A stretch of DNA of 64,000 nt from Pseudomonadota bacterium (GTDB lineage: Bacteria; Bdellovibrionota; UBA1018; CAIMNF01), in the NCBI GenBank assembly GCA_027491115.1, contig JAIXWV010000027.1:1-64000 (forward strand). Reading direction: 5' to 3'. Below, in pieces: positions 39,981-42,025 of the stretch. The notes under the pieces were generated by a model. The model worked only from the letters and a program-made list of their open reading frames with translations. It ran no database searches and had not been told where the DNA came from. A program made the position numbers and the translations under genes. How positions within the stretch are numbered: the first letter of the stretch is position 1; every line of letters starts with the position of its first letter.

Positions 39981-40726
39981 GTCGCATCGACCGGCATTTT
40001 TGACCTTTTGTCCACACTCAGGCGATGACAGTCTCTCTATCGTGATTTAAGTGGGTAGGGATGGTGGTACGCGACCTGCACTCTATCCGGACGTCGAGGA
40101 TGGAGGTCCTCGATGGAGGAACAGCAGCGATGCTCGCTTCTCTTTCCTACGGGTTGGAGTCCCGGAGGCGGAATCGTCCGGTTGCCGCCTGAAGCACAGA
40201 TCCGGAAAGCCCTCTGAGAGGAGGGCTTTTTGAGCAGGGCCTGAAAAGTCCGGGGAAACGCATTCCCGGGCGGCGAAAGCCCCGGTTGGCACGAAAGTGC
40301 ACCTTGTTGAACTTGTCTACTCGACGGTCGGAGCGAAACCGTCGGGGGGAGATCCGCCGATTCCGGGTGAAGCCGGATGAAGGCCAGTGTCATCGAATCC
40401 TTACCGGAAAATACGGATTCGAGAGGGTCGGACAGGGAAAAGGACTACGGGGGCTGGAGGAAAGGAAGTCAAAGCACGGAAGCACTCTCTTCACACCGAT
40501 CCGGCTTGAGGTTGAAGGTCGGTAGCCGCGCAAGCGGTGAAGGAGTGTGGCGGATGAGGCCGACAAGTGCGTAAGCACGAGGGCCTCTGCAGTTGATCGG
40601 ATGAGGTCGGGTCCCGACTTCATCTCATGGAGAAGGCAAACGGGTGTCAGAGTTCCGTTCCCCTCAAGAAGGAGCGGGGCTGATGGATGTCCCGGAAGAC
40701 CTCTCTTGAATAGATCGACTGTTCAG

Positions 40727-40753
40727 CCGTACCGGGAAAAACCCCATGTACGG
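40727..40753 (+). other. Domain-V-like hairpin
   Basis: CCGTAC pairs with GTACGG, a two-base AT bulge on the 3' side follows the upper stem, and GGG/CCC is closed by an A-rich loop. Group II domain V also has a lower stem, a two-base 3' bulge and a short tetraloop-capped upper stem, and it begins AGCCGT as here. The expected GTT after GTACGG reads GAA, so the catalytic AGC would not pair as usual; this weakens the assignment. Confidence 0.5.
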
Positions 40754-40763
40754 AATGAGTCAA

Positions 40764-40812
40764 ACGGGAGTGGAAACGTCGATCCGCAAGGATTGAAACG
40801 CGCCACTCCCGT
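40764..40812. other. Ten-base-pair stem at the 3' end of the structured RNA
   Basis: ACGGGAGTGG pairs perfectly with CCACTCCCGT around a 29-base loop that itself holds GATCC-GCAA-GGATT. It may be the last domain of the RNA, or a shared terminator between it and the convergent MFS gene ending at 40820. Confidence 0.6.
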
Positions 40813-40819
40813 CTCCATT

Positions 40820-42025
40820 TTAGGCCTTGCTCGGAGTGGCGGTGGGCGAACGGAAGAGAAATGCCATCAACATGGTTCCTCCTGCAAACAAGGCCCATGC
40901 CTCGAGCGACACGTGTCCGATCAGAAGCCCTGCGATGATGGGGGCGAAAATCGATGCCATCGAAGCCAAACTCTGTCCGACACCAAAAATGGCCCCCTGC
41001 TCTTTGGGGCCGACAGCATGGGACATCAGCGCCGAGACGGAAGGTCGAATCAATCCTGATCCAATCGAGGACAGTGTGGATGCAACCAGTGCCATTGGAA
41101 CGGTTTGTACGAAAGCGTAAGTTGTGAATCCGAGCCCTTGCGCCAGGAAGCCGATTCGTGAAGTCCCTTTTTCTCCAAATCTGTTGATCAATGCACTGAT
41201 AATCCAGCTCCGGACTCCAATCCCCAAAAGCCCGAGATAAGCATAGAGGTAGCCGACTTCCTTGGGTCCGAAAGGGGTGCCGTTCCAGGTCAGTCTTCTT
41301 TCGGCAAAGAGTGCGAAACACGAGATGTGAGCCGAGAATGAAAGATTGAAAAAGAAGAATTGGAGCAGCAGAGGACGGACCTCGATCTGACGGAGATAAC
41401 TGAAGAGAGGTTTGAAGTCGAAAGCGTGAGACAACTCACCGAGGCCGATCTTGAACGGCTTTTTCTCTTCATGCATTTGCTTCGAGTCCTGAAAAAAGGC
41501 AATAGTCGACAGGATGCTCAGAAATGAAAGTGCAGCTGCCCCCCAAGCAGGGGCTTGATTTCCAAAATGCGATAGCAGGGCTGAAATGGCGGGGCCAACG
41601 AAAAACCCGAGTCCGAAAGAGACGCCGATCAGTGAAAAGGCCTTGGCGCGTTCTTGGGGCTTCGTGATGTCAGAAATCGCCGCTTGTGCCACCGTGATGT
41701 TTCCGGCAGTGATTCCGTCCATGATCCGAGCAAGATAGACCATCCACAGTGAATTGGAGAGCGCGAGGATGACAAAACCAACACAAGTCCCGATCTGGCT
41801 CAGAATCAGGACGGGCTTACGGCCCATGCTGTCTGACATTCGGCCCAATACCGGGCCTGCAAGAAACTGACAGAATGAGAACGAAGTCAGGATTAGACCG
41901 ACCTGGGTGGGGGTCGCACCAAACTGCTCTGCATAAAACGGTAAGTAAGGGAGCACCAAGGTGAAGGCGAGGATGTCGACAAAAACGATGAAGAAAATCG
42001 CGAGAAGAGGCCTCGACCGGAGCAT
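40820..42025 (-). CDS. MFS drug-exporter-like transporter (DHA1/TetA type)
   Basis: 401 residues with twelve predicted membrane helices. Motif A of the MFS appears between helices 2 and 3 as GRMSDSMGRKPVL, the helix-5 motif as FSLIGVSFGLGFFVGPAISALL (SLIGVSFGLGF) and the second-half copy of motif A is degenerate. The arrangement resembles TetA/Bcr-type proton antiporters. Substrate is unknown. It is convergent with the structured RNA and lies downstream of lexA on the same strand. Confidence 0.85.
   Translation of the reverse strand: MLRSRPLLAIFFIVFVDILAFTLVLPYLPFYAEQFGATPTQVGLILTSFSFCQFLAGPVLGRMSDSMGRKPVLILSQIGTCVGFVILALSNSLWMVYLARIMDGITAGNITVAQAAISDITKPQERAKAFSLIGVSFGLGFFVGPAISALLSHFGNQAPAWGAAALSFLSILSTIAFFQDSKQMHEEKKPFKIGLGELSHAFDFKPLFSYLRQIEVRPLLLQFFFFNLSFSAHISCFALFAERRLTWNGTPFGPKEVGYLYAYLGLLGIGVRSWIISALINRFGEKGTSRIGFLAQGLGFTTYAFVQTVPMALVASTLSSIGSGLIRPSVSALMSHAVGPKEQGAIFGVGQSLASMASIFAPIIAGLLIGHVSLEAWALFAGGTMLMAFLFRSPTATPSKA

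Follow-up and report, generated by a model that had tools for sequence, protein, structure and literature searches.

At the active site of group II introns, the AGC triad and the AY bulge serve as metal-binding elements, and introns of this class without an open reading frame (ORF) have been described as rare in bacteria (PMC4424553). Host genomes are known to have domesticated the reverse transcriptases (RTs) of these introns, G2L4 being one example (PMC12337344). A search of the literature found no case in which a group II intron RNA had been domesticated into a promoter-driven, free-standing bacterial gene. In this study, we examine an RNA of ~730 bases encoded by an uncultured relative of the predatory Bdellovibrio, within a stretch of 64,000 nucleotides of contig JAIXWV010000027.1 (assembly GCA_027491115.1; hereafter the window). 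No description of this RNA was found in the papers searched or in Rfam. Its domains, its covariation, and the sequences flanking it point to a likely domestication: a group II intron core would have lost its exons and its mobility and become a free-standing, self-terminating gene driven by sigma-54.

Homology to group II introns and conservation of the fold

A preliminary description of the window, made from the sequence alone, had proposed a large structured RNA, possibly an ORF-less group II intron, at 40,045-40,815. No credible gene occurs in that interval, as had been stated, and the strand folds at -363.5 kcal/mol, compared to -306.8 +/- 7.0 kcal/mol for shuffles (n=20), a z score of -8.1. 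The GNRA loops (GCAC-GAAA-GUGC, CCGC-GCAA-GCGG, GUGC-GUAA-GCAC, and GAUCC-GCAA-GGAUU), a hairpin resembling domain V (DV), and a perfect 10-bp stem (40,764-40,773 paired with 40,803-40,812) are all present. The interval holds for the RNA itself but not for 40,045-40,089, which is upstream DNA that carries a sigma-54-type promoter element. Promoter spacing puts the probable start of the RNA near 40,090, and its probable end is near 40,820 (Table 1).

Table 1. Predicted features of the RNA locus, in positions of the window.
Feature	Positions	Strand	Basis
Sigma-54 promoter-like element TGGTACGCGACCTGC (GG-N10-GC)	40065..40079	+	Same offset in all 8 family-A copies; rpoN in genome
Predicted RNA, group II intron-derived, free-standing	40090..40821	+	Homologues in genus and phylum; fold z -8.1; covariation; 5' end from promoter spacing
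5' hairpin, types A and B only	40094..40113	+	Fold; extra sequence between promoter and domain I motif in types A and B
Domain I core	40118..40296	+	R2 covariance model, 40118-40198; RF02003, 40147-40296
Domain III-like element GUGGCGGAUGAGG...GAGGGCCUCUG	40545..40590	+	ORF-less introns (e.g. L037, L107, L114) and family alignment; domain assigned by comparison
Domain V-like hairpin AGCCGUA...AUGUACGGAAU with AGC triad and AU (AY) bulge	40725..40756	+	Within R1 match
Domain VI-like hairpin, perfect 10-bp lower helix without bulged A	40764..40812	+	Folds and alignment; compared with intron domain VI ending CUCUACUCGG
Tail UCUCCAUUUU, terminator-like, weak in window copy	40812..40821	+	U tracts after hairpin in most members
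Convergent MFS transporter gene, ending at RNA 3' end	40820..42025	-	PF07690, E 1.7e-58

The Rfam search that the preliminary description had proposed as a check gave no model above its gathering score for this RNA; across the window, tRNA alone reached that score and no riboswitch was found. The best link to a known class was RF02003 (group-II-D1D4-4), which matched domain I (DI) of the window copy at 25.7 bits (E 0.0015) and exceeded its gathering score in 8 relatives, with up to 73 bits. RF00029 gave no match in the window, and blastn of the RNA against plasmids and phages gave none either. Matches to CRISPR-repeat, microRNA, and snoRNA models in the window (E 0.09-9) were set aside as chance.

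In 84,980 genomes, a pattern built from the DV hairpin matched 93 stretches, which included members of the RNA family and ordinary group II introns. Several of these introns carry an RT upstream of DV, many have no RT reading frame detected nearby, and ten sampled loci exceed the RF02003 gathering score. The introns and the window RNA have in common a DI motif (GGGUGAAAGUCCC...), an GUAGCGAAAGCGAACCU element, an element of domain III (DIII; UGGCGGAUGAGG...GAGGGCCUCUG), DV, and the internal loop GGAAACG...CGCG of domain VI (DVI). These shared elements support homology between the RNA and ORF-less group II introns across DI, DIII, DV, and DVI.

The same search brought out two observations on the introns themselves. 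Introns that look ORF-less and whose DV reads AGCCGUAY..AYGUACGGAAU (L036-L115) are widespread in bacteria and archaea, occurring in Desulfobacterota, Planctomycetes, Bacillota, and Methanophagales, and several genomes hold more than one copy. At two loci (L070:3929-6609 and L049:5625-7642), an RF02003 core with its DV adjoins an RF02005 core, with an RT reading frame downstream of DV; the order at L070 is RF02003 core, DV, RF02005 core, RT. These loci are possibly nested introns (twintrons).

Relatives of the RNA were found throughout its genus and beyond. When whole genomes were searched by blastn, two species of the genus yielded the RNA with 92% and 87% identity, and six further species and two genomes of another family yielded separate conserved blocks of it; a full-length alignment of relatives shows conserved blocks throughout. 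A survey of 368 genomes of the phylum used two covariance models, R1 (DV-DVI, 131 positions) and R2 (DI, 80 positions). Each matches 29 genomes, and their union covers 37 of the 368, in seven families. In the 46 members extracted, R1 and R2 match the same strand with a similar distance between them, G039 having an R2 match only.

Base pairing in these relatives is maintained by changes on both sides of the helices. In the DI alignment (47 sequences), 90% of cells pair and two-sided changes occur at 15 of 19 pairs; in the DV-DVI alignment (44 sequences), 91% of cells pair, with such changes at 26 of 29 pairs, and DV alone has them at 7 of its 10. Both alignments were fitted to the structures, which favors those structures, and unfitted alignments of divergent members give a similar picture (11/18 pairs). 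Two controls were applied, shuffles, which leave relatedness in, and slid structures, which remove it: the covariation score was reached by none of 500 shuffles, and slid structures scored several times lower. By this measure, the RNA structure is kept under selection across seven host families, and covariation among homologues, the lack of which the preliminary description had named as refuting its claim, is present and strong.

Putative promoter and terminator, and neighboring genes

Of the 33 members outside host family f15, 31 have the GG-N10-GC element at a constant distance ahead of the DI motif, where shuffles predict 2.2. Measured from the R2 match, the element lies at -53 in each of the 8 family-A copies, at about -48 to -50 in most type B copies, and at -32 to -34 in the other members, and these values match the presence or absence of the 5' hairpin. 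The window genome contains rpoN. The element and rpoN together mark the RNA as a predicted sigma-54-dependent transcription unit. At loci of f15 (L171, L173, and L214-L224), inspection by eye revealed sigma-70-like -10 elements in a position that would give the same RNA start, an apparent promoter swap. At the other end of the RNA, the DVI hairpin is followed in most members by U-rich sequence, with long tracts in many. Several type A relatives also have an A-rich 5' flank to the hairpin at 40764-40812, so it could terminate the convergent MFS gene as well.

The family includes paralogues of three types: A, to which the window copy belongs, B, and C. The window genome itself has a second, diverged copy of type B (contig C30, 68,048-68,813). 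Copies of types A and B keep conserved places in the genome and are not scattered. In a FastTree phylogeny of 46 family members and 7 introns, the two sets separate, and the members group largely by host family, with f13, f18, and f22 mixed. This tree suits one domestication within the phylum followed by mostly vertical descent with duplication and many losses, few introns having been sampled. RNA-less relatives were checked for an empty site, and the sole clear match to the MFS gene (G010) sits in a different gene order.

Genes linked to stress recur beside the RNA. Hsp20 genes adjoin it in G004C, G222a, G248, and G249, and CBS-domain genes in G221, G222b, G254, and several f15 copies (some of the CBS calls were made by sequence inspection). 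A PRTase-erythromycin esterase gene adjoins type B, FtsH (assigned by sequence inspection) adjoins G005C2, and a Ribosomal_S30AE hibernation factor adjoins the G039 copy. BON, Usp, and archease genes and sigma-54 activators are found among the further neighbors. Judged from the listed neighbors alone, recurrence of stress genes in unrelated families is unlikely to be due to chance. Two of the f15 copies (L171 and L221) have an archease gene next door. Archease is the partner of the RNA ligase RtcB, and RtcB operons are sigma-54-regulated in other bacteria; a parallel with RtcB and RNA repair, drawn from archease at these two copies, is suggestive only.

This arrangement raises the question of whether the RNA is a 5' leader that controls stress genes downstream, such as those for Hsp20 and CBS proteins, in cis through termination or ribozyme action. 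In G004C, G222a, G222b, G248, G249, G132a, and G132b, a same-strand Hsp20 or CBS gene begins 16-48 nt past the R1 match, a gap that leaves little room for another promoter. However, type A lies between a secreted-protein gene and the convergent MFS gene, which follows the RNA within a few bases in the window and in close type A copies, and this rules out a leader function for the window copy. Other members precede unrelated or opposite-strand genes, and the U tract usually comes ahead of the gene. As an account of the family, the leader is thus a minority possibility, which we would put at about one chance in five; a cis role is possible for those copies that stand ahead of Hsp20 or CBS genes.

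Absent intron features and the state of domain V

Ordinary introns of the same type start with GUGCGAC, and their DVI helix bears a bulged A (CUCUACUCGG). Inspection by eye of the 5' boundary in the window copy and the other type A copies showed no GUGYG; some members in f13 and f10 have GUGUU or GUGCU there. Folds and alignment, also judged by eye, show the 10-bp DVI helix of the window copy without a bulge, and hence no branch-point A, and in type A no equivalent of the intron CUCUACUC. The promoter lies directly upstream, and therefore there is no evident 5' exon. No RVT_1 domain was found in the window genome, which is 98.7% complete, and the group II maturase domain (GIIM) was found neither there nor in 14 of the 18 carrier genomes tested. 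The preliminary description had held that an ORF-less intron would need a trans-acting maturase and had seen none in the window. The genome as a whole yielded none either, but the RNA appears not to require one, because 14 of the 18 tested carriers lack GIIM.

In DV, all 42 members scored have the AY bulge (AC in 24, AU in 18). The AGC triad is found in 31 of them and is replaced by UGC, CGC, or AAC in the other 11, so the catalytic center is mostly, but not universally, preserved. The window DV has an AGC triad and an AU bulge; the strand opposite the triad reads GAA instead of GUU, and one pair of the upper stem is broken (C.C). The canonical GAGC/GUUC pairing occurs in relatives, accompanied by compensatory changes. 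The pairing of DV had been called imperfect, as it is opposite the triad, but simple decay does not describe it, in that other family-A copies and many ordinary ORF-less introns keep the window's form, AGC opposite GAA. In two members, DV is absent (G039) or rearranged (G344). Both loci (L209 and L212, respectively) have kept DI and the terminator hairpin and, if expressed, would show catalysis to be dispensable.

These data bear on whether the RNA is still an ordinary ORF-less group II intron that splices with a maturase supplied in trans. Homology in DI, DIII, DV, and DVI, together with the retained triad and bulge, would be expected of such an intron, some members of the genus do encode RTs, and ORF-less introns can do without an RT in cis, so that RT absence alone does not exclude the RNA from the introns. 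Set against this are the unseen GUGYG end and bulged A, the promoter immediately upstream and the U tract after DVI, the lack of RVT_1 in its own genome and of GIIM in most carriers tested, and the occurrence of one copy per type at the same place rather than scattered copies. A splicing intron is accordingly improbable, well below the leader in likelihood. Of the earlier proposal, the kinship stands, through RF02003 and through DIII, DV, and DVI, while the designation as an intron does not, given the missing end and branch point, the promoter, and the U tract in most relatives. The new RNA class that it had also considered is borne out to this extent: the RNA belongs to a new family that stems from group II introns but apparently no longer consists of introns. 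A functionless, decaying intron remnant would account for the lost or rearranged DV and the altered triads but not for compensatory changes throughout, a conserved promoter, conserved synteny, and paralogues, and it is largely refuted by the covariation, leaving it with the slightest chance of all. A circularly permuted group II RNA was rejected on domain order, DI preceding DV in the window.

Several points weigh against a domesticated, free-standing intron core. The window copy falls short of the RF02003 gathering score, its U tract (UCUCCAUUUU) is weak, as it is in the type B copies nearest to it, and a generic terminator scan called no terminator there. The f15 members lack a sigma-54 element, the transcript ends are inferred, and the type A copy itself adjoins no stress gene. 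The split between family and introns is weakly supported (0.61), with only 7 introns sampled, the distribution is patchy (~10% of the genomes of the phylum), and the genomes are mostly metagenome-assembled.

Possible mode of action and comparison with known RNAs

As a domesticated intron core, the RNA would be made directly, as a free molecule of ~730 nt, by the host's sigma-54 programme for stress or starvation, and it would be terminated by its own DVI hairpin, in effect an intron born already excised. Because type A runs straight into a convergent gene, it must act through the RNA itself and thus probably in trans. The Hsp20, CBS, FtsH, hibernation-factor, and other stress neighbors suggest a role in the stress or dormancy response. 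The retained DV might still cleave or ligate other RNA, or the molecule might serve only as a scaffold for a ribonucleoprotein, and we lean toward a structural or regulatory RNA with possible residual catalysis. No intact DV that was scored has lost the AY bulge, so the RNA could catalyze reactions in trans; that the RNA is a stress-induced, free-standing group II ribozyme that still cleaves or ligates cellular RNAs is a tentative idea to which we assign a low probability. If true, it would mirror, in bacteria, the passage of a group II intron to a small nuclear RNA (snRNA). More broadly, the family suggests that a genomic parasite has turned into a free-standing cellular RNA. The RNA also offers a marker, tied to stress genes, for relatives of bacterial predators across the phylum, and R1 (~130 positions) and R2 (~80) recover it.

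Among described RNAs, merRNA of Bdellovibrio bacteriovorus (PMC3627812) is likewise a free-standing structured RNA of the same phylum, but it carries a c-di-GMP riboswitch, and none was found in the window. Like this family, circularly permuted group II RNAs (PMC8637638) descend from group II introns, are large, free-standing, and non-coding, and lack an RT of their own. In contrast, their domains run D5-D6-D1-D4, where here DI comes before DV, and no link to sigma-54 has been described for them. The closest likeness is to the RF02003-type ORF-less introns, which share the DI core, the DIII element, a DV with the AY bulge, the DVI loop GGAAACG...CGCG, and a size of 700-900 nt. The introns differ in that they start with GUGCG, carry a bulged A in DVI, end in CUCUACUCGG, and often occur in several copies per genome, whereas the promoter, the U tract after DVI, and the fixed positions belong to the RNA family. 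Spliceosomal snRNAs, which have been compared with group II introns (PMC4424553), offer an analogy only: in both cases a group II active-site RNA exists as a separate gene, but the core of the RNA family is in one piece, and the likeness is conceptual and not by way of trans-splicing. An origin of snRNAs from group II introns needs a step like this domestication, and the RNA family provides a testable bacterial lineage in which something similar seems to have happened.
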